A stretch of DNA of 64,000 bases from Haloplanus sp. GDY1 (lineage in GTDB: Archaea > Halobacteriota > Halobacteria > Halobacteriales > Haloferacaceae), in the NCBI RefSeq assembly GCF_023703775.1, contig NZ_CP098514.1:2763998-2827997 (forward strand). Direction: 5' to 3'. This document shows positions 6,236-23,477 of the stretch, piece by piece. The notes under the pieces were generated by a model. That model saw nothing but the letters and a program-made list of their open reading frames with translations, searched no databases and was not told where the DNA came from. The position numbers and the translations under genes are program-made. Each line of letters opens with the position of its first letter. Position 1 is the first letter of the stretch.

Positions 6236-8779
6236 ATGAGCAGGAAGTTCCCATCCTCCGCCGAGACGGTCGTCATCGGCGCCGGCGCCGTCGGCTGTAG
6301 CGTCGCCTACCACCTCTCGGAACTCGGTGCCGAGGACGTGGTCGTCGTCGATCAGGGGCCCCTGCCGATCACCGGCGGGTCGTCGACGCACGCCCCCGGC
6401 ATCATGTTCCAGACGTCGCCGTCGAAGCTCATGACGAAGACGGCTCACTACACCAGCCGCCTCCTCGACGACGCGGGCGTCTACGACGAGGTGGGCGGCA
6501 TCGAGGTGGCCCGTTCGGAGGAGCGCATGGACTTCCTCCAGCGACGGGTCGAACACGCCACGGCCTACGGCCTCCCCGACCCGCAACTGCTGACTCCCGA
6601 GGAGGTGACCGACCACCTGCCGCTGGTGAACGAGGACGCCATCCTCGGCGGCTACTACTCGCCGACCGACGGCCGCGTCGACGGCGTCGCCGCCCTCCAG
6701 TGGTACATCGAGGAGTCGGACGCCGACTTCCACGGCCACACGTCGGTGACCGACCTCGACGTCGCCGGCGGCGAGGTGCGGGCCGTCGAGACGGATCGGG
6801 GCCGCATCGACTGCGACCGCTGTGTCGTCGCGACCAACAACTGGGGGTACCAGACGGGGAAACTCGCGGGGCTGGACCTGCCCATCGCCCCCGTCGAACA
6901 CCAGTACGCGGTCACCGAACCGCTCGACGAACTCGCCGGCGCGGACCCCGCCACGCGCGTCGACACCGACGCCCTCGACGTTCCGGGCGACCACCGCATC
7001 ACCGACGCGATGGGGAAGGCGCCCAGCCGCCCGGTCGGCCGCGACCAGGACCACTCCCTCTACTTCCGCACCCACGGCGACAGCCTCGGCCTCGGCTCGT
7101 ACAACCACGAGTCCCTGACGGTCGACCCGGACGCCATGGGGGGGAACACCGAGGAGCGCCAGGCCTCGGTCCACGACTTCACCGACGAACACTGGGAGCG
7201 GGCGACCCACCCCGACCGCGACAAATCACCGCAGAGGGCCTTCGAGGAACTCCTCCCCGTCTCCGAGGGGGCGGACTTCCAGGCCACCGAGAACGGCATC
7301 TTCGTGTTCACGCCCGACGGCATGCCGGTCCTCGGCGAGACGGCGGACGTGTCCGGCCTGTGGACCGCCCTCGCCATCTGGTGGACCCACTCCGGCGGCT
7401 ACGGGAAGATCCTCGCGGAGTGGATGGAGACGGGGGTGCCGAAGCTGCCCGACGGCCCCGTCGACACGGGCGCCATCCACGTCAACCGGTTCGAGCCCCA
7501 CGCCGGCAGCAAGCCCTACTTCGTCGACCGGGGCGCCACGCGGTACCGGCAGGTCTACAGCATCGTCGAACCCCACTGGCAACCCGACGACCACCGCGGC
7601 CTCCGCCGCAGTCCCTTCTACCACGCCCAGGAGGACCTCGGCGCCCACTTCGTCCAGAGCGGCGGCTGGGAGTCGGCCCAGTGGTACGAGTCCAACGCCG
7701 ACCTCGTCGACCGCTACGCGGACCGCATCCCCGAGCAGGAGGGCTGGCAGGGCATCAACCGCTCGCGGATCGAGGGCGCCGAACACCTCCACACCCGCGA
7801 GCACGTCTCGATGTTCGACATGACGACGTTCAGCTCGATCATGGTCGAGGGGAGCGAGGCCGGTGCCTTCCTCCAGCGGGTCTGTAGCAACGACGTCGAC
7901 ATCGACGTGGGGCAGGTGCGCTACTCCCTCCTCCTGAACGAGGGGGGCAACGTCCTCGCGGACGTGACCGTCGTCCGCCTCGGTGACGACGAGTACATGG
8001 TGACCACCGGCGGTGGCAACTCGCCGGGCATCCACGGATCGTGGCTGGAGAACCACGCCCCGGACACCGTCTCGGTCACCGTCGAGGAGGGCGCCCGCTC
8101 CACGATCGGCCTGTGGGGGCCGAAGTCGCGGCTCCTCCTCCAGCGGGTCACCGAGGCGGACGTCTCCGCCGAGGGCTTCCCCTACTTCTCGGCCAAGCGC
8201 CTGTACGTCGGCGAGGTGCCCGTGATCGCGCTTCGGGTCTCCTACGTCGGCGAACTCGGCTGGGAGCTGTGGGCCCCCGCCGAGTACGGCGCCCGACTCT
8301 GGGAGACGCTGTGGGAGGCGGGGCAGGACCTCGACGTGCGCCCGATGGGTGGCGGCGCGCTGGAGTCGATGCGCCTGGAGAAGGGCTACCGGCTCTGGGG
8401 GACGGACATCGACACCGACACCGATCCCTTCGCCGCCGGCCTGTCCTTCGCCGTCGACATGGACACGGAGTTCGTCGGCAGGGAGGCCTTGGCGGCGGGC
8501 GGCGACCCCGACAGCCGCATCGTCCCAATCACCCTCGACGACTCGACGGATCGACTGTTGAGCGGCCGCCCCGTCACGGCGGACGGCGAGACGCTCGGCT
8601 ACGTCCAGGCCGCCGACTACGGCTACAGCGTCGGCGCGTCCATCGCCTACACGTACGTGCCGAGCGAGTACGCGGAGCCCGGCACCGCGGTGCAGGTCAC
8701 CTGCGAGGGCGAGACGTACGACGCCACCGTGCGCGAGGAACCGCTGTTCGATCCGGGGAGGGAGAAGATCCTGCGGTAG
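6236..8779 (+). CDS. FAD-dependent oxidoreductase/GcvT fusion, dimethylglycine/sarcosine dehydrogenase family (copy 2)
   Basis: The 847-residue paralogue has the same domain order as the upstream gene. The FAD motif is GAGAVG (15-20), the candidate flavin-linking histidine is H52 in GGSSTHAPG, and GGNVLAD in the GcvT domain keeps the conserved aspartate. Compared with copy 1 it lacks about ten residues after the first FAD region and diverges at the presumed substrate face. With zero intergenic bases, the two may be made in equal amounts. A hand-off of dimethylglycine to sarcosine to glycine by the two proteins is the simplest model, but it is inferred from context. Confidence 0.87.
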   Translation: MSRKFPSSAETVVIGAGAVGCSVAYHLSELGAEDVVVVDQGPLPITGGSSTHAPGIMFQTSPSKLMTKTAHYTSRLLDDAGVYDEVGGIEVARSEERMDFLQRRVEHATAYGLPDPQLLTPEEVTDHLPLVNEDAILGGYYSPTDGRVDGVAALQWYIEESDADFHGHTSVTDLDVAGGEVRAVETDRGRIDCDRCVVATNNWGYQTGKLAGLDLPIAPVEHQYAVTEPLDELAGADPATRVDTDALDVPGDHRITDAMGKAPSRPVGRDQDHSLYFRTHGDSLGLGSYNHESLTVDPDAMGGNTEERQASVHDFTDEHWERATHPDRDKSPQRAFEELLPVSEGADFQATENGIFVFTPDGMPVLGETADVSGLWTALAIWWTHSGGYGKILAEWMETGVPKLPDGPVDTGAIHVNRFEPHAGSKPYFVDRGATRYRQVYSIVEPHWQPDDHRGLRRSPFYHAQEDLGAHFVQSGGWESAQWYESNADLVDRYADRIPEQEGWQGINRSRIEGAEHLHTREHVSMFDMTTFSSIMVEGSEAGAFLQRVCSNDVDIDVGQVRYSLLLNEGGNVLADVTVVRLGDDEYMVTTGGGNSPGIHGSWLENHAPDTVSVTVEEGARSTIGLWGPKSRLLLQRVTEADVSAEGFPYFSAKRLYVGEVPVIALRVSYVGELGWELWAPAEYGARLWETLWEAGQDLDVRPMGGGALESMRLEKGYRLWGTDIDTDTDPFAAGLSFAVDMDTEFVGREALAAGGDPDSRIVPITLDDSTDRLLSGRPVTADGETLGYVQAADYGYSVGASIAYTYVPSEYAEPGTAVQVTCEGETYDATVREEPLFDPGREKILR

Positions 8780-12624: not shown

Positions 12625-12683
12625 GCTACGTCCCTTACCGGTCGTTCTCCTGATGGGAGCAAATAACTTGGGGGCGGCGACGG

Positions 12684-13922
12684 CTACTCGCTCCCGCTCC
12701 CGTCGTCGAAGAGGTCGGTGAGAGCGCCGCCGTTCTCGTCGCCCAGAACCGCCCGCCCGAGGAGTCGGCCGCCGATGACGGCCGGACTGACCACCGCGTC
12801 GGCGCCGACGGCTTCGAGTTTGTCGACGTGTCGCTGGTCGGTCGCCGCGGCGACGATTCGTACGTCGGGGTTGGCCTGCCGCGCCGCGACGACGGCCAGG
12901 GCGTCGCGGGCGTCGTCGTCGGTGGCGACGACCACGCCCCTGGCGGCGTCGATGCGGGCGTCGAGCAGCGGCCCCTCGTCCGTCGGATCGGCGGTCAGGA
13001 CGTTCACCTCCCGGTCGTCGAGCGCGTTCGTCCCCTCGGACTCGGGCGCCACGACGACCACGTCCGCCGTCGCTTCGAGTTCGTCGAGGAGCGGTTCCGT
13101 CAGTTCGCCGTGGCCCAGGACCAGCACGTGGTCCTCGAGCAGTGTGAGTTCGGAGGCGGTCATGGTTCCGAAGGCCTTGGAGATCCGCGATTCGAGGGCC
13201 GGGACGAGCAGCGACCCCGTGGCGACGGTGAACGCGCCCGTCCCGAGGACGATCACCGAGAGCGTGAACAGCTTCGTCACCTGCGTCGTCGGCGTCGCGT
13301 CGCCGTACCCCACGGTCGTCCCGGTGACGATGATGTAGTAGAAGGCGTCGGTCAGGCTCTCGACGCCGGTGAAGTCCTCGCGCATCGCGTAGGTGCCGAC
13401 GGTGCCGTACACCTGCACCGCAACGAAGGAGAGGAGCGCGGTGGCCTGAAACGGCGTCAGATCGAGCGGGCGGTCGAAGCCGCTCCGGTTCGTGACCACC
13501 AGCGGTAGGCCGACGGCGCCGGCGACCAACAGCAACAGGTCGGTGGCGTCGCCCGTCACCAGCGGGGCGGCGAGGAGCGCCGGAAACAGGGCGAGCGCCC
13601 CGTACCACGCGAGGCGATAGCCCGCCCGCAACCCCGCGGCGACGACGACGAGCAGGAACGCCCCGAGGATGCTCGCGAGGGGGACCACCGCCGTCGCTCC
13701 AGCCGGGAGGAGTCCGGCCAGCGGACCCGCGGGGACGAACGATCCCTGACTGAGGTGGGAGAGACCGGCGACGAAGGCGAGGACGGCGGCCGCGCCCGTC
13801 ACCCACACCGCGGTCCGCACGCCGGAGAACGTCCGCCAGTAGACCAGCGGCACTCGATCCGGCCGGTGGAACAGCTCGTCGAGGGCCGTCTCGCTCGGCT
13901 GATCGGGCGTGTCGGTCGCCAC
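12684..13922 (-). CDS. potassium channel with N-terminal membrane domain and RCK (TrkA-N) domain
   Basis: 412 residues. The N-terminal half has about five hydrophobic spans, then an outer helix (158-176), a pore with selectivity filter TVGYGD (203-208) and an inner helix (220-242). The cytoplasmic half is an RCK/TrkA-N fold starting DHVLVLGHGELTEP, with GHGELT (270-275) as its nucleotide-binding turn. The extra N-terminal spans resemble 6-TM rather than 2-TM channels. A TATA element 20-30 nt before the ATG indicates a leaderless transcript, divergent from the second BCCT carrier. Confidence 0.88.
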   Translation of the reverse strand: MATDTPDQPSETALDELFHRPDRVPLVYWRTFSGVRTAVWVTGAAAVLAFVAGLSHLSQGSFVPAGPLAGLLPAGATAVVPLASILGAFLLVVVAAGLRAGYRLAWYGALALFPALLAAPLVTGDATDLLLLVAGAVGLPLVVTNRSGFDRPLDLTPFQATALLSFVAVQVYGTVGTYAMREDFTGVESLTDAFYYIIVTGTTVGYGDATPTTQVTKLFTLSVIVLGTGAFTVATGSLLVPALESRISKAFGTMTASELTLLEDHVLVLGHGELTEPLLDELEATADVVVVAPESEGTNALDDREVNVLTADPTDEGPLLDARIDAARGVVVATDDDARDALAVVAARQANPDVRIVAAATDQRHVDKLEAVGADAVVSPAVIGGRLLGRAVLGDENGGALTDLFDDGSGSE

Positions 13923-13942
13923 GCCTCACGTTCGTGACCCCG

Positions 13943-13951
13943 AGATAAAAA
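13943..13951 (-). promoter_or_regulatory. TATA element of the K+ channel gene
   Basis: The minus strand reads TTTTTATCTC about 25 nt before the ATG at 13922, the spacing expected for a leaderless archaeal transcript. Confidence 0.55.
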
Positions 13952-13969
13952 GTGTGAGTCGACGACACA

Positions 13970-13977
13970 CCTATACC
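13970..13977 (+). promoter_or_regulatory. TATA element of the second BCCT gene
   Basis: CCTATACC lies about 27 nt before the ATG at 14001, again consistent with a leaderless transcript. It shares a 78-bp divergent region with the channel promoter. Confidence 0.5.
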
Positions 13978-14000
13978 CTCGGCCGCCGACAGGTCGTGAT

Positions 14001-15878
14001 ATGGCGACCCACGGCGCGACCGGCGTCGAGCGACTCGTTCGCGCGGCGCTGCTCCCCGTGTGTGCCGCCTCCGGTATCGTCGTCGTCTCGGGCTTTTTCT
14101 TCCCGTGGATCGTCGGCTCCGTCGTGACCGGCCGGGGGTGGCTCGTCGTCGCCCTCCTCTTTTTCGGCTCCGGGCTGGCCTACCTCGCGCTCCTCCCCCT
14201 CGACGCACTGGCGGGCGACGAGGACGCCCGTCCCGGCGCGCCCTACCTCCTCCGTGTCCGGCACGTCTCCCCGCGGGACTGGGCGAGCGGCTTCCTCGCG
14301 CGCCAGGATCCGATCACGTTCGGCGTGCCGGTCCTCGTCCTCGCGGCCTTCTTCGCCGCCCGACTCCTCGCGCCCGGTGCGACGACTGCCGCCGTGGCCG
14401 TCGTCGACGGCGTGCTCTTCGACGACTTCGCCCCGCTTTTCCTCGGGGCGATGTTTCTGGCCGTCCTCTACGCCCTGTTCCTGCTCGTCGGGCCGTGGGG
14501 GGCGATCAAACTCGGCGGCCCGGACGCGGAGCCGACCTACACCTACCCGACGTACTTCGCGATGGTGTTCACCGCGGGCATCGCCGCCGGCGTCGTCTTC
14601 TGGGGCCCCGCCGAGTCGCTCTTTCACTACGGCTCGCCGCCGCCCGGGACCGGCGTCGCGCCCCGATCGGACGCGGCCGTGGTCGTCGCTCTGAGCTACG
14701 CCCTCTTTCACTGGGGGGTCTCCGCCTGGAGCGCCTACCTCGTCGTCGGTCTCCCGATCGCCTACTTCACGTACCGGCACGGCGCGCCGCTCCGCGTCTC
14801 GACGATTCTGACGCCCTTCCTCGGCGTCGAGGGCCTCGACGGCTACGCGGCGAAACTCGTGGACGTGCTCGCGGTCTTTGCCACCATCGGCGGCGTCGCC
14901 ACCTCCGTCGCCATCGTCGGCCGGCAGTTCCTCGCCGGCGTGGCGTTCCAGTGGGGCGTGAGCTTCGGCGGCGTCGGCGCCCTCCTCTTCGTCGCCGGCC
15001 TCGTCGTCATCTACAGCATCTCCGCGGAGAGCGGCGTCCAGCGGGGGATTCGACGCATCGCCGGCGTCAACCTCCTCCTCTTTGCCCTCCTCTCGATGCT
15101 CCTCGTCGCCGTCGGCCCTCGCGGCTTCGTCCTCGACGCCGGGGTCGACGCCGTCGGCCGATACGCGACCGAGTTCGTCGCGATGAGCCTCTCACCCGGC
15201 GGCGACTGGGCCGCCGACTGGACGGTCTGGAACTGGTCGTGGTGGTTCTCTTGGGCGCCCTTCGCCGGCCTCTTCCTCGCGGCGCTCTCGAAGGGGCGCC
15301 GGGTGCGGACCGTCGTGTTCACGGGCGTGGTCGCCACGTCGGCGGCCTCCGTCTGCTGGCACCTCCTGCTCGGCGGGACGGCGCTCTCGCTCCAGCACTC
15401 GGGCCGGGTGGACGCCCTCGCCGCCGTCGCCGCCGGCGGCGGCTCCGAGGCCGTCGCGGGCTTTCCCGTCTTCGCCGCCCTCCCGCTCAGCCGACTGCTG
15501 ATGTTCCTGTTTCTCGCGCTCATCGTCGTCTTCATCGTCACCTCCGCCGACACGTCGACGCTCGTCGTCTCCATCCTGGCGACCGAGCGGGGCCACGCCC
15601 CCACCACCGGCAGCATCGTCTTCTGGGGCGTGCTCCAGGGCCTCGTCGCCGTCGCCGTCCTCCTCGTCGGCGGCGGCGAGTCGCTACAGACCGCGGCGGT
15701 GGCGACGGGCGGTCCCTTCGCCGTCCTCTCGCTCGTCTCGCTGTACGGCCTCACGCGGACCTTCCGCCGACACGAGCGCGGGCATCCGACCGTCCTCGAT
15801 CGGGCGGCCGTCGTCCTCGCGGCCACGCCGCTCGGTCGGTTCGTCCCCTCCGACGACGGCGATCACCGGGAGCGATAG
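14001..15878 (+). CDS. BCCT-family transporter, divergent from the BetP type
   Basis: 625 residues with about 12-13 spans. The aromatic box WNWSWWFSWAPF is present. The region that is GMGIGLMFF in the other BCCT protein reads GIAAGVVFWGPAESL here, so the glycine-rich substrate and sodium stretch is changed and the substrate is probably different. It also has an extra N-terminal extension with two to three spans. Its neighbours are a K+ channel and a Usp protein, not catabolic genes, which suggests a role in osmotic balance rather than nutrition. The 3' end overlaps the convergent small membrane protein gene by 16 nt. Confidence 0.85.
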   Translation: MATHGATGVERLVRAALLPVCAASGIVVVSGFFFPWIVGSVVTGRGWLVVALLFFGSGLAYLALLPLDALAGDEDARPGAPYLLRVRHVSPRDWASGFLARQDPITFGVPVLVLAAFFAARLLAPGATTAAVAVVDGVLFDDFAPLFLGAMFLAVLYALFLLVGPWGAIKLGGPDAEPTYTYPTYFAMVFTAGIAAGVVFWGPAESLFHYGSPPPGTGVAPRSDAAVVVALSYALFHWGVSAWSAYLVVGLPIAYFTYRHGAPLRVSTILTPFLGVEGLDGYAAKLVDVLAVFATIGGVATSVAIVGRQFLAGVAFQWGVSFGGVGALLFVAGLVVIYSISAESGVQRGIRRIAGVNLLLFALLSMLLVAVGPRGFVLDAGVDAVGRYATEFVAMSLSPGGDWAADWTVWNWSWWFSWAPFAGLFLAALSKGRRVRTVVFTGVVATSAASVCWHLLLGGTALSLQHSGRVDALAAVAAGGGSEAVAGFPVFAALPLSRLLMFLFLALIVVFIVTSADTSTLVVSILATERGHAPTTGSIVFWGVLQGLVAVAVLLVGGGESLQTAAVATGGPFAVLSLVSLYGLTRTFRRHERGHPTVLDRAAVVLAATPLGRFVPSDDGDHRER

Positions 15879-16123
15879 ACCGGCCGGAGGTCCGTGGGGT
15901 CCCTGTCGTAGCCGAGCCACACGCTCAGCACCGACGCCACCACCAGGAGGTAGACGGGAAAGAGGGCGATCGTGACGTACACCGCCGCTGCCGGCGCGAG
16001 CGCACCGCTCCGGTAGAGCCAGGCGAGGACCGAGAGGCCGGCGACGGCGGCCACGAGCACGCCGAACCTGAAGGCACTCCGGGCGGCCGGTCCGGGTTCG
16101 GGGGAGGGGTCCACTGTCGTCAT
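15863..16123 (-). CDS. small two-span membrane protein, unknown function (86 aa)
   Basis: The preferred ATG at 16123 follows an ACTTATGG TATA-like element at about 16150, supporting a leaderless start; an upstream in-frame start would add 20 residues. Two hydrophobic helices span about residues 20-37 and 43-65, followed by a charged tail. Its 3' end overlaps the BCCT gene on the other strand by 16 nt. No family is recognised. Confidence 0.5.
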   Translation of the reverse strand: MTTVDPSPEPGPAARSAFRFGVLVAAVAGLSVLAWLYRSGALAPAAAVYVTIALFPVYLLVVASVLSVWLGYDRDPTDLRPVYRSR

Positions 16124-16195
16124 CGACGCCCGAGCTACGGCCTCGCGACCCATAAGTTGGAGGATCGATCCCGCCCCTGACACTGCGACACAGCC

Positions 16196-18127
16196 TCACT
16201 GACTGGCGATTTCCGGCGTCCGCGGGCTGACGGTGTCGAACGCCGTCCGGAGGCGCTCGGCCTCCTCCGGGAGCGCCGCCGCCACGACGTAGCGGGCGTG
16301 GTCGTCGAACACGGAGAGGATCCCGCGGATGCGCTCGGCGTCCAGCATCTCGATGGCGTCGACGACGACGACGGGCACTACGTCGGCCACGTCGTGGACC
16401 AGATATCCCGCCAGCGCGATGACCAGGCCGACCACCTCGCGCTCGCTCTTGCTGAGGGTGTCGACCGACGCGCGGTAGACGGTGCCGTCGTCCGTGGTCC
16501 GCACCACCTGCAGGTCGAACGTCGTCCCCTCGTCCGTCTCCCGGCGGTCGATCCAGACCCGCTCGATCTCGCGGTAGTCCAGCCGATCCAGGGTGCGGGA
16601 CAGGCACTCGTTGACCGTCTCGACGGCCTCGCGCTCGATCCGGTCGACCCGCCCGCGGCGCTCAGCGAGGCGGTCGTTCACCGCCGCACGCTCCTCGCGG
16701 AGCGACTCGACCTCCGCCCGGGCGTCCTCCGCGGCCTCGACGTCGTCCTCGACCGCCGCGATGTCGCGCTCGAGTCGGCCGCGCTCGTACTCCAGGTCGC
16801 TCACCTCGCGGTGGCGCTCGAGCAGGTCGTCGTCCGCGTCGGCCTCGGCGAGGTCCGCCTCCAGGTCGCGGATGCGCTCCTCGGCCGCCTCGATGCGGTC
16901 CTCGAGCTCCGACAGCGCGCGTTCGCGCTCCTCGATCTCCCCCTCGAGTTCGCGCCGGCGCGTCTCGAGGTCCGCGCGCTCGTCGAGACGCTCCTCGAGG
17001 TCCGCGCGCTCGTCGAGACGCTCCTCGATTCGCGCCTCGACGACCGTTCGCTCCTCGCGTTTCGTCTCCAGGATCGCCTCGACGGCCTCGATCTGCTCGC
17101 CGATCTCGCTCCGCTCGACCGACTGGCCGCAGGTCCAGCAGGTGATCGTCTCCGACGCCGGATCGAGGCGGTCGACCACGTCTCCCGCCTCGAACCCCTC
17201 CGGCAGTCGATCGTCCGCGAGGAACGCCCGGTTCAGCTCGACGACGGGCCGCAGGGCGTCGATCGTCTCGTCGAGGCGTCCCTTCCGCTCCCGGAGCGTC
17301 GTCAGTTCCTCCTCGACGGCGTCGAGCCGCGACCGGACGCTCTCCCCGTCGACGTCCGCCGCGAGCGCGGACAGGTCCGCCTCGACGGCGTCGAGGTCGT
17401 CCCGCAGGGAGTCGATGGCCCGTCGCTTGGTGTCCCGTCGGTCGCGGAGTCGCTCGCGCTCCGAGCGGGCGTCTTCGAGGGACTCGAGGAGGTCACGGGT
17501 CGCCTCGGCGGCCGCCCGGCGGTCCGCCCCGTCGAGCGCCGCCCGCTTCTCGTCGAGTCGCTCCGCCACCTCGTCGAGCTCCTCCCGCAGTCGCCGCGCG
17601 CGAACCTCCAGTTCCGGCAGGGCGTCGGCCCGCTCCTCCAGGTCGTCGATCCGCTCGTCGAGGTCCGCCCGTCGGTCGAGCAGTCGCTCGATTTCGGCGT
17701 CGATCCTCTCGGTGTCGACCGGCCGCATGAGCAGGTCGTGCAGCCCCGTCCCGTCGACGACGGCCCGCCGGATCGGGTTGTCCTCGTCGAGGCGGACGAA
17801 GAGGTCGACGAGCGTCGACCGCTCGGTGTACGGCCGTGCGTCGGTGACGACGGTCTCTCCGCCCTCGCGCGCGAGTTCGACGCCGTACCGCTCGCCGTCG
17901 AGGGCGAGCGTGACCGAACCGGTCTCGGCGCCGCCCCGGAGCGGCGGGTGGGAGCCGCCGAGGGCGGCACCCAGGCTCCCGAGCAGCGAGGACTTGTTCG
18001 ACGCGTTCTCCCCCGCGACGACGGTGATGCCGGGATCGAAGGTCACCTCGGCCCGCTCGATGCCGCCGACGTTCCTGACGCTAACCGTCAGCCCGTCCGC
18101 GCCGTCGGTCGAGTCGTCGGCTGTCAT
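16196..18127 (-). CDS. archaea-specific SMC-related coiled-coil ATPase, partner gene of rdfA
   Basis: 643 residues: an N-terminal nucleotide-binding head, long coiled coils (about 130-310 and 345-520) broken by a single CxxC (C330, C333) in the middle, and a C-terminal head half with a Walker B-like VVVVDAIEM. The Walker A is the unusual GENASNKSS (39-47), with Asn before the Lys instead of Gly. The single CxxC at mid-coil recalls a zinc hook. The rdfA-type gene lies 65 bp upstream on the same strand, a pairing typical of haloarchaea. A role in cell-shape control or chromosome organisation is inferred from that neighbour. Confidence 0.75.
   Translation of the reverse strand: MTADDSTDGADGLTVSVRNVGGIERAEVTFDPGITVVAGENASNKSSLLGSLGAALGGSHPPLRGGAETGSVTLALDGERYGVELAREGGETVVTDARPYTERSTLVDLFVRLDEDNPIRRAVVDGTGLHDLLMRPVDTERIDAEIERLLDRRADLDERIDDLEERADALPELEVRARRLREELDEVAERLDEKRAALDGADRRAAAEATRDLLESLEDARSERERLRDRRDTKRRAIDSLRDDLDAVEADLSALAADVDGESVRSRLDAVEEELTTLRERKGRLDETIDALRPVVELNRAFLADDRLPEGFEAGDVVDRLDPASETITCWTCGQSVERSEIGEQIEAVEAILETKREERTVVEARIEERLDERADLEERLDERADLETRRRELEGEIEERERALSELEDRIEAAEERIRDLEADLAEADADDDLLERHREVSDLEYERGRLERDIAAVEDDVEAAEDARAEVESLREERAAVNDRLAERRGRVDRIEREAVETVNECLSRTLDRLDYREIERVWIDRRETDEGTTFDLQVVRTTDDGTVYRASVDTLSKSEREVVGLVIALAGYLVHDVADVVPVVVVDAIEMLDAERIRGILSVFDDHARYVVAAALPEEAERLRTAFDTVSPRTPEIASQ
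16964..17023. repeat. 30-bp exact tandem duplication inside the SMC-related gene
   Basis: Two identical 30-bp units encode the same ten residues twice (ERLDERADLE), in phase with the coiled coil. The duplication keeps the frame and adds a little under three heptads to one arm. Confidence 0.8.
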
Positions 18128-18192
18128 CGTGAGTCGTGTCCGACCGCCCCGTGATCGGACGAACGTACCCGTCGTACGTCCGGGCGAACCTA

Positions 18193-18816
18193 TTACGTTT
18201 GTGACTCTCCCGCGCCCCTCCCCGCGTCGGCACAGGCACAGCCGCCGCGTTCGACCAGGCTCAGCAGCCGATACTCCTCGCCGCAGGACTCACAGGTCAC
18301 CCGCGCGGCGAGCGACACCGAGAGGGGTCCCGTCTCCAGGGCCTCCGTCTCGGCCAGCCGCGACAGCTCCCGCTCGGTGACCGCCTCCGTCCGGCCGAAC
18401 AGCGCGAACACGGTGTCGGTGACGCTGCCCGCGTCGACCGGCTCCGACGCCCGGGCCGTGTCGACGCCCGCACACTCGCGGAGATGCGTGCGGACGGTGC
18501 CGTAGGTCACGAAGTCCTCGCGGAGGGCCTGCACGTCGACGCCGGCCCGGGTCAGCCGGTCCGTCGCCTCCGTGCGCGCCGCGTCGCTCACGCCGTCGTC
18601 GGTCAGCAGCCGGTAGACGTTCGCCGCCTCGTCGTCGAGGAGTTCCATCCCCGCCGCCCGCATCGCCGCCGCGAGCAGTTCGCGGTTGAAGAACCGCTCC
18701 AGGTCCCGGAGGCTGTCGCCCGCCGCCCGCCGCCGCCGCACCAGCCGCTCGGGGAGCGTCGACAGCCCCCGCCGGGCGCACACGTCCTCGATCTTGCAGC
18801 CGCCGCCCTCGGCCAT
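18193..18816 (-). CDS. rdfA: rod-determining factor RdfA family protein
   Basis: 207 residues. The N-terminus has the family-like CKIEDVCARRGL (7-18), a short winged-helix-like start. The C-terminus has a zinc-binding arrangement C175-x2-C178 and C193-x-C195. RdfA was described in Haloferax volcanii as a factor needed for rod formation and is regularly next to an SMC-related gene, as here. The pair should form one transcript. It diverges from the spermidine-synthase-like gene, with TTTAAC and TTAACC elements in the 87-bp gap. Identification is by overall pattern and context, not alignment. Confidence 0.7.
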   Translation of the reverse strand: MAEGGGCKIEDVCARRGLSTLPERLVRRRRAAGDSLRDLERFFNRELLAAAMRAAGMELLDDEAANVYRLLTDDGVSDAARTEATDRLTRAGVDVQALREDFVTYGTVRTHLRECAGVDTARASEPVDAGSVTDTVFALFGRTEAVTERELSRLAETEALETGPLSVSLAARVTCESCGEEYRLLSLVERGGCACADAGRGAGESQT

Positions 18817-22111: not shown

Positions 22112-23260
22112 TCACGGGGTCGTGACGTCGCGCTCGACGACGGTTCCCTCGGCGCCAACGGCGACGGCCCTGGAGTCGCCCACCGCCACGGCGCGCAGCG
22201 TGACCGTCGCCGGCGTCGCCACCCGCGTCCACTCCGTCCCGTCCCGCTCGAACACCGTCCCCTCCCGGCCGCCGGCCAGACACCGCCCGTTCCGGACGGC
22301 GACCGACTCCAGCGCGGCGTCGGCGACCCGTTCCGGCGTCCACCGCCCGCCGTCGTACCGGCTGACCACCCCGCCGTCGTCACACGCCAGACAGCCCTCG
22401 GGACCGGCCGCCGCGAGGTCGGTCAGGGTCCCCGGCGCGTCGACGCCGATCCGATTCGCGGTTCGCCAGCCGTCGGTCGTCCGGAAGACGGCCTGACTCG
22501 TATCACAGGCGTACCCCACCGACGCCGTCGGGAGGACGACGCCGCTCAGGCTGGAGCCGTTCCCCGGCGTCGTCGGCTCGTCCCACGCCATCTCGCCGTC
22601 GCGGTAGCGGCCACGTCGGAGCCGCCCCGATCCGTCAGCGAGCACGACGGTCTCCCCGTCCGCCGCGTCGGCGGCGGCGAGCGCGACGACGTTCGTGGTG
22701 TCGCCGTTCGGCTCGGAGTGGGACACGTGGCGGTCCGCCGAGCCGTCGATCCGGCCGACGGCCCCGGCGTCGCCGGCGAACCAGACCGCCCCGGAACCGG
22801 TCGTGTCGACGCCGGCGAGCGCGTTCGACCGCGCGTCGGCCCCGTCCGCGACGACCCGTTCCCACCCGCCGCCGGCGTCGCGCAACACGGTGCCCGCCGA
22901 CCCGACCGCGTAGGCGCGGTCCCCGTCGACCGCGACGTCGGTCAGGGTCTCGTCCGTCGGGACGGCGGACGCCGTCCACCTCGGGTCGGGGCGCCCCGCA
23001 GACCCGTCGCGGGATCGGCCCTCGTCGACCGCCGGGTCGTCGCCTCGGTCGGCGTCGGGGTCCTCCGCTCCCGTCGACCGGGCGTAGAGGACGAGCGGCG
23101 GCACGACGTACGCGAGCAGCGCGACGACGGCGAAGAGCGGATCCAGAAACGTCAGCGTTCCGAACGCCGTCAGTGCCGCCGTCGCGACGGCGTGTTTCCA
23201 CGTCCGGGCGTACCGCTCGAAGAACGCGCCGAACGCGGCGATCCGCTCGGTGGGAGACAT
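22112..23260 (-). CDS. membrane-anchored beta-propeller protein (YCF48/BNR-like repeats)
   Basis: 382 residues from the ATG at 23260. An N-terminal charged region precedes a hydrophobic hairpin (about 20-58), followed by an acidic low-complexity linker. The remainder is a run of about seven repeated units of the type 'VAVDGDRAYAVGSAGTVLR', 'VAVRNGRCLAGGREGTVFE' and 'VAVGDSRAVAVGAEGTVVE', typical of a propeller with a G-x-x-G-T-V turn per blade. Such proteins are often assembly or binding scaffolds. Orientation of the propeller relative to the membrane is uncertain. The 217-bp gap upstream (23261-23477) shows no feature. Confidence 0.65.
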   Translation of the reverse strand: MSPTERIAAFGAFFERYARTWKHAVATAALTAFGTLTFLDPLFAVVALLAYVVPPLVLYARSTGAEDPDADRGDDPAVDEGRSRDGSAGRPDPRWTASAVPTDETLTDVAVDGDRAYAVGSAGTVLRDAGGGWERVVADGADARSNALAGVDTTGSGAVWFAGDAGAVGRIDGSADRHVSHSEPNGDTTNVVALAAADAADGETVVLADGSGRLRRGRYRDGEMAWDEPTTPGNGSSLSGVVLPTASVGYACDTSQAVFRTTDGWRTANRIGVDAPGTLTDLAAAGPEGCLACDDGGVVSRYDGGRWTPERVADAALESVAVRNGRCLAGGREGTVFERDGTEWTRVATPATVTLRAVAVGDSRAVAVGAEGTVVERDVTTP

Positions 23261-23477
23261 CGACCGTAGGTCGGTCAGTCGACCACTCGGATCTTTCGCC
23301 CTCACACGACCCCGACGCGGACACCCCGACGCGTTCGCCACCCGCTACCGCGAGTCGGGACGTGGTCCCCCCGCTCCCGCACGGCGTCGCGTTCGCCGAC
23401 GCCGGGCTCGCGAGCGCGCTCCGTCGCCCCCGCCCGTCCGTCGGGTCCGGCCGAGCGCTGCGGTGGGGTCGGTCGTC

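Follow-up and report, generated by a model that had tools for sequence, protein, structure and literature searches.

In Haloferax volcanii, both rdfA and sph3 are needed for the formation of rods, and the adjacency of RdfA and Sph genes is already in print, as 42 of 54 and 42 of 50 (PMC10869688). All four sph deletions of this species impair gene conversion, sph2 and sph4 could not be deleted together, and the deletions of sph2 and sph3 lead to opposite shapes (PMC11276520). The family to which Sph proteins belong, the archaea-specific SMC-related proteins (ASRPs), carries a CxxC motif that has been described as a zinc hook (PMC9389158). A study from 2026 (PMC13286277) states, in its available text, that Sph3 maintains plate shape, which is the opposite of what PMC10869688 and PMC11276520 report, namely that no rods are formed upon sph3 deletion. 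What the accessible parts of PMC12240190 and PMC13286277 otherwise offer on these genes concerns regulation and abundance only. The word "Walker" occurs neither in the main text of PMC10869688 nor in the text of PMC11276520, as far as these are available, and a search by title and abstract opening in the open-licence PubMed Central literature returned no paper on a degenerate ATP site or on a methanogen RdfA. RdfA, the ASRP family and their pairing are thus already published, while the apparently intermediate ATP site of the divergent clade presented here, and the lineage-wide change that the alignments suggest, were not found described.

A divergent RdfA-ASRP pair in Haloplanus

The window, a stretch of 64,000 nucleotides from Haloplanus sp. 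GDY1, contains an RdfA gene followed by an ASRP gene, both on the minus strand and with 65 bp between the two open reading frames (Table 1). The original prediction of an RdfA and an SMC-related ATPase that are adjacent and co-directional is borne out: the first protein scores 193.9 bits against Pfam PF21811 (gathering cut-off, 27) and the second 553.3 bits against NCBIfam NF045487 (curated cut-off, 300), covering the profile entirely (1-593 of 593). These family matches and the adjacency of the genes also support, by homology, membership in the RdfA-Sph module; as for the cell-shape role proposed along with it, we infer it for the window copy from homology only. The genome contains two RdfA and two ASRP genes over cut-off and every RdfA adjoins an ASRP, although the other pair is arranged tail to tail and its ASRP (L001) belongs to the main branch of the family, with Asn-Arg in Walker A.

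Table 1. Features of the RdfA-ASRP locus, in positions of the window
Feature	Position	Strand	Basis
RdfA family protein, 207 aa	18193..18816	-	PF21811 match, AlphaFold2 model
RdfA C-terminal CxxC...CxC, residues 175/178/193/195	18232..18294	-	Cys conservation in aligned RdfA
ASRP/Sph (archaea-specific SMC-related protein), 643 aa	16196..18127	-	NF045487, AlphaFold2 model, Rad50 fold match
Walker A GENASNKSS, residues 39-47; Asn44 for last Gly, Lys45 kept	17987..18013	-	translation; comparison
Zinc hook CWTC, residues 330-333	17129..17140	-	CxxC in 85 of 85 haloarchaeal ASRPs
30-bp direct repeat, 2.2 copies, 100% match, C-terminal coil arm	16964..17028	-	repeat detection, comparison with relatives
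ABC signature LSKSE, residues 558-562 (canonical LSGGE)	16442..16456	-	LSxSE shared by all 58 ASRPs in alignment A2
Walker B and D-loop VVVDAIEMLD, residues 587-596; Ala591 for catalytic Glu, Glu593 present	16340..16369	-	alignments

ASRPs of the window's clade were found in five genomes only, three from the window's own genus, including Haloplanus ruber, and two from a second genus, where one copy matches a 356-kb plasmid of Haloprofundus salinisoli. The window locus is chromosomal and syntenic within the genus. The dN/dS values between the window pair and its nearest relative, that of H. ruber, are 0.35 for the ASRP and 0.25 for RdfA, indicating purifying selection on both. The pair is flanked by genes for a spermine-synthase-like protein and a BCCT transporter and by a small ORF that matches nothing in Pfam. 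A block at 12675-16190 of the window (TrkA-type channel, BCCT transporter and small ORF) is absent from the otherwise syntenic region of H. ruber and mostly there in another genome of the genus. Further away, the protein encoded at 22112-23341 (minus strand) scores 27.6 bits against the HVO_0234-like beta-propeller family, barely over the cut-off of 27, and ARAGORN reports at 7902-7993 (plus strand) a tRNA gene with unresolved anticodon.

The AlphaFold2 model of the ASRP, made from a 58-sequence alignment (mean pLDDT 88.8), builds the head from both chain ends and forms the coil arms from helices 139-305 and 339-516, with the hook between them. The head aligns with that of Rad50 (3qku_A; Z 21.4, rmsd 3.6, 301 aligned; Foldseek and VIA-align 2) and with that of Smc (5xns_A; Z 20.7, rmsd 4.1, 324 aligned), and the solved relatives found by sequence were two Rad50 sequences only (E 0.007-0.008). 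As modelled, the ASRP has a Rad50/SMC-type ABC head whose two parts are separated by an antiparallel coil that carries a zinc hook. The single CxxC that had been singled out in the middle of the coil is indeed there, but it is the normal hook of the family, as its presence in every haloarchaeal ASRP compared demonstrates, and its being a peculiarity of this protein is ruled out.

The resemblance of the head to Rad50, together with the gene conversion defects of the H. volcanii sph deletions, the failure to delete sph2 along with sph4 and the opposite shapes upon loss of sph2 and sph3 (PMC11276520), speaks for a reading in which genome maintenance comes first: Sph proteins would act in recombination or in the copy equalisation of polyploid chromosomes, with shape as a downstream effect. 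Such a role would fit a clamp as well as an ATPase. We nevertheless consider it somewhat unlikely as the primary function, since cells deleted for sph3 or rdfA form disks only and show no growth defect (PMC10869688).

RdfA is modelled (mean pLDDT 91.6) as a helical N-terminal domain, a long helix at 129-156 and a C-terminal Cys4 end that resembles a zinc ribbon. The four cysteines are kept in 59, 59, 59 and 57 of 61 aligned sequences, which makes this a probable zinc site. None of the 110 Foldseek matches of the model to the PDB reached E 0.001 or better, the sequence search for solved relatives returned a single chance-level match, and a second structural comparison gave a top Z of 4.8, to a cytochrome P450, a value that names no fold and excludes none, that of kleisins included.

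The coil of the window ASRP had also been predicted to carry a recent in-frame duplication of 30 bp. The repeat is real: the longest exact repeat reaches 35 bp here versus 9-13 bp in four relatives, a length reached in only 1 of 300 trials of synonymous-codon shuffling, and the two 10-residue units are identical at 28 of 30 bases in the window against 14-16 of 30 in the relatives. The event is recent, local and lineage-specific, but it did not lengthen the arm, because at the repeat the coil aligns without gaps with four close relatives of equal length, and a coil-lengthening duplication is thereby ruled out. The equal length and the identities of the units are better explained by local homogenisation, or by an insertion offset by a deletion, than by a net insertion.

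The ATP site of haloarchaeal ASRPs

The Walker A of the window ASRP does not follow the canonical GxxxxGK[ST], the last Gly of GENASNKS being Asn, as the original prediction had noticed and correctly numbered (N44). It had missed a second loss, that of the catalytic Glu of Walker B (hhhhDE), which in the window ASRP reads VVVVDA (VVVVDAIEMLD); at this place the Rad50 of this genome has LILDE and its SMC has YALDE, as read by eye. The H-switch is equally changed, with YVVAAALPEE in the ASRP versus IVIVSHDEE in Rad50 and FVVVSHRS in SMC of this genome (also by eye), and neither a Q-loop glutamine nor an H-switch histidine could be recognised in the window ASRP. The ASRPs show neither the DE nor the SH pair that both canonical proteins have.

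These changes are not private to the window. The comparison covered 85 haloarchaeal ASRPs, chosen for a high score or for likeness to the window protein, with 17 lower-scoring ones added, and not drawn at random. In these, the last Gly and the Lys of Walker A read Asn-Arg (NR) in 69, Gly-Lys (GK) in 11 and Asn-Lys (NK) in five, the latter being the window's clade. Asn is thus found in 74 of the 85, so that the altered P-loop is a lineage-wide trait and a P-loop unique to the window is ruled out; the window ASRP keeps the Lys and so departs less from the canonical motif than the majority of its relatives do. Position 591 of Walker B is Ser in 69, Gly in eight, Ala in five, Arg in three and Glu in none. 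The seven ASRP loci of three Haloferax genomes (species other than H. volcanii), with four distinct genes newly counted, all read DS, which brings Glu to 0 of 89, and none of the seven shows the motif state of the window. Outside haloarchaea, all nine ASRPs compared are GK and seven have the catalytic Glu, the other two having Asn and Asp. In these counts, L133, whose sequence ends before Walker B, was left out, and the 13 non-haloarchaeal loci entered the motif table without L094 (close to L093) and without L098 and L100, which are of the L097 type. Alignment A2 comprises the window ASRP and 57 others out of the 72 that were found; its counterpart A1 took 57 of 62 other RdfA proteins and three methanogen RdfA-like ones.

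Two residues downstream of the lost acid, Glu593 is found in all 53 haloarchaeal rows of A2, with Thr or Leu in the five others, in all 69 NR sequences and in the five NK ones; it appears where Glu591 is gone. It may be a replacement for the lost acid, and Asn tolerates the backbone turn that Gly makes in P-loops. On these grounds the ASRP could be a working ATPase, in which Glu593 of a D-x-x-E motif stands in for the canonical Glu, Asn keeps the turn and the cycle is Rad50-like. We find this unlikely. GK-type haloarchaeal ASRPs have Glu neither at 591 nor at 593 (such as DGLGG and DRLGG), and 69 of the 85 haloarchaeal proteins have changed Lys to Arg, a substitution that usually cripples P-loop ATPases.

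In the 69 NR sequences, N41-S47, S591 and E593 are invariant against a mean column conservation of 0.62, and the P-loop, the signature and the Walker-B Asp rank with the least variable columns. The invariance of the changed residues suggests that the site has been re-set and selected, not left to decay. We infer that haloarchaeal ASRPs bind ATP, although so invariant a site could bind something else. One of the seven Haloferax loci, that of Haloferax prahovense (L141), encodes an ASRP with a further decayed P-loop, GRNAADRTP, that keeps its RdfA neighbour and its zinc hook; dispensability accounts for this better than strict constraint. This case and the loss of the catalytic residues are what could be said for a nucleotide-free coiled-coil scaffold of cytoskeletal nature, in which the head would be a dimerisation domain only, in line with what the authors of PMC10869688 suggested for Sph3, which they likened to coiled-coil-rich proteins. 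The near-invariance of P-loop, signature and Walker-B Asp would be unexpected in a head that binds no nucleotide, and makes this explanation quite improbable.

A tree was built from the head columns of the ASRPs after removal of five motif columns (L097, which has LSGGE and adjoins an apparent Mre11-type gene, is not in it). The four motif groups map onto this tree with three changes, the minimum possible, and the NK clade is sister to the NR clade with SH-aLRT values of 88 (NK and NR together), 84 (NK) and 90 (NR), although the support of these key branches is moderate, the outgroups that place the root have long branches and the tool cautions about long-branch joins. This position makes the window's clade look like a surviving intermediate. 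The order of events would be a loss of the catalytic Glu before haloarchaeal ASRPs diversified, then a change of Gly to Asn, and finally of Lys to Arg in the main branch, the window's clade having stopped after the second step. The Glu is also missing in two of the nine non-haloarchaeal ASRPs, so its loss may have been more than one event.

The reading that we prefer, and whose chances we judge to be about even, is that the pair represents the haloarchaeal RdfA-Sph module in a divergent copy located on the chromosome, and that it encodes a zinc-hooked, Rad50-like and ATP-gated clamp with RdfA as partner. Two ASRP copies would join at the zinc hook and through heads bridged by nucleotide; this dimer would turn over ATP at a very low rate, if at all, and RdfA would bind the head or the neck and set the open or closed state. 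The absence of a catalytic Glu, a Q-loop glutamine and an H-switch histidine would leave little or no hydrolysis, and hence a clamp or tether gated by ATP binding and not a cycling loop extruder.

RdfA as partner and relatives in methanogens

RdfA was found in the flanks of 74 of the 85 haloarchaeal ASRPs, the 11 without it all being of the NR type. The gene lies upstream on the same strand in 59 cases, downstream on the same strand in nine, and on the opposite strand in three upstream and three downstream cases. That adjacency has been kept despite changes of order and strand argues more for a functional link than for the persistence of an old operon alone. The adjacency count includes five of the nine non-haloarchaeal ASRPs, the others having been read by eye, and L091 was scored as lacking RdfA (under the adjacency threshold) although PF21811 finds it with E 1.3e-4. 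L065 and L072 carry an additional RdfA gene, co-directional with the ASRP and some 0.6 kb downstream of it. The distance matrices of both proteins correlate with r 0.90, which none of 2000 permutations attained, and with r 0.89 within the NR group, and the nearest neighbour is the same for both partners in only 43 of 74 cases; part of this correlation is plain co-inheritance, since the partners share their history and are near neighbours on one replicon. Given that the fold of RdfA has no convincing match, a role in binding the head or the neck is a guess.

Outside haloarchaea, PF21811 matched proteins from three genomes of a single family, one over cut-off (E 1.3e-8) and two under (1.6e-5 and 1.3e-4), and all three genes adjoin an ASRP on the same strand. 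The search covered 11 non-haloarchaeal genomes, and in the remaining eight the best PF21811 match had an E of 0.05 or worse, or there was none. Two of the three methanogen loci with a match are on plasmids, of Methanohalobium evestigatum (NC_014254.1) and Methanomethylovorans hollandica (NC_019972.1), and the partner gene is already annotated as RdfA on the former and as hypothetical on the latter. A related winged-helix gene follows as the third member in all three loci, with a Pfam HTH_45 match in two of them; the methanogen module combines an ATP site more canonical than that of haloarchaeal ASRPs with a winged-helix gene. An SMC-like protein with a partner and a winged-helix protein recalls SMC-kleisin-KITE complexes. 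A search for a haloarchaeal counterpart of the winged-helix gene, with a profile of its three methanogen proteins, found only those three genes, each in several overlapping loci, plus an unconvincing match in L080 (E 0.027). There is apparently a different ASRP module as well: in the non-haloarchaeal loci L090, L092, L093, L096 and L099, the ASRP gene comes after a gene for an ATPase of the AAA type (with PF00004 in L090), and most of these loci have a small gene in the place of RdfA.

The plasmid location of one copy of the window's clade and of two methanogen copies, and the varying number of copies per genome (0 to 6), could speak for an accessory or mobile-replicon system, such as plasmid maintenance or a defence of the Lamassu kind, in which RdfA would be a partner other than a kleisin. 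LmuB profiles do match the ASRP (E 2e-18), mostly in the coil, and so does the structure 9hqx_B (E 1.9e-10, TMq 0.40). Yet RdfA has no match in PADLOC-DB or in phage records, no gene next to the window pair could be recognised as coding for a nuclease, and the locus sits on the chromosome with synteny across the genus, so that we regard such a function as very improbable. Defence in particular was rejected, the LmuB and JetC matches of the ASRP being weak and mostly driven by the coil and RdfA matching neither PADLOC nor any phage record.

Seen across the family, the clamp that we prefer could be the product of a longer history. We propose tentatively, and with clearly less confidence than for the window genes themselves, that haloarchaea converted a Rad50/SMC-type ATPase stepwise into a class of non-cycling, ATP-gated clamps, with a re-set site (N-A-T-N-R-T-S with D-S-x-E) under strong selection and RdfA as fixed company. 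The hydrolysing ancestor would still be found in methanogens, as a three-gene set of ASRP, RdfA-like and winged-helix proteins (on plasmids in two of three cases), and the window's clade would represent the middle step, Asn-Lys.

Implications and comparison with known systems

If haloarchaeal ASRPs cannot hydrolyse ATP canonically, models in which their effect on shape comes from loop extrusion or Rad50-type cycling become unlikely, and the question turns to what switches the clamp, for which RdfA is the first candidate. The motif series (GK with or without Glu, then NK and NR) provides ready natural variants for ATPase assays and for complementation tests in Haloferax.

Among known systems, Lamassu has in LmuB an SMC-like protein of similar size, and 9hqx, 9hqu and 9ux7 are among the best Foldseek matches of the ASRP; it differs from the window pair in that no LmuA effector nuclease was recognised beside the latter and in that RdfA is without PADLOC match. 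With Rad50, the window ASRP has in common an ABC head with a zinc hook (Z 21.4), but its partner is RdfA instead of a nuclease of the Mre11 type, and the catalytic Glu and the H-switch His are missing. Closer still are the ASRPs already described, Sph proteins and the coalescin ClsN (PMC9389158), with which the window protein shares NF045487, the split head, the coil and the zinc hook; Walker A and B are reported there as present, and the haloarchaeal loss of the catalytic Glu and the changes at the Gly and Lys of the P-loop were not found in the available text. The closest counterpart remains the pair of H. volcanii, RdfA (HVO_2174) and Sph3 (HVO_2175) (PMC10869688), which consists of the same two families encoded by adjacent genes. 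The window pair belongs to the NK clade, unlike the Haloferax ASRPs compared, which come from species other than H. volcanii.
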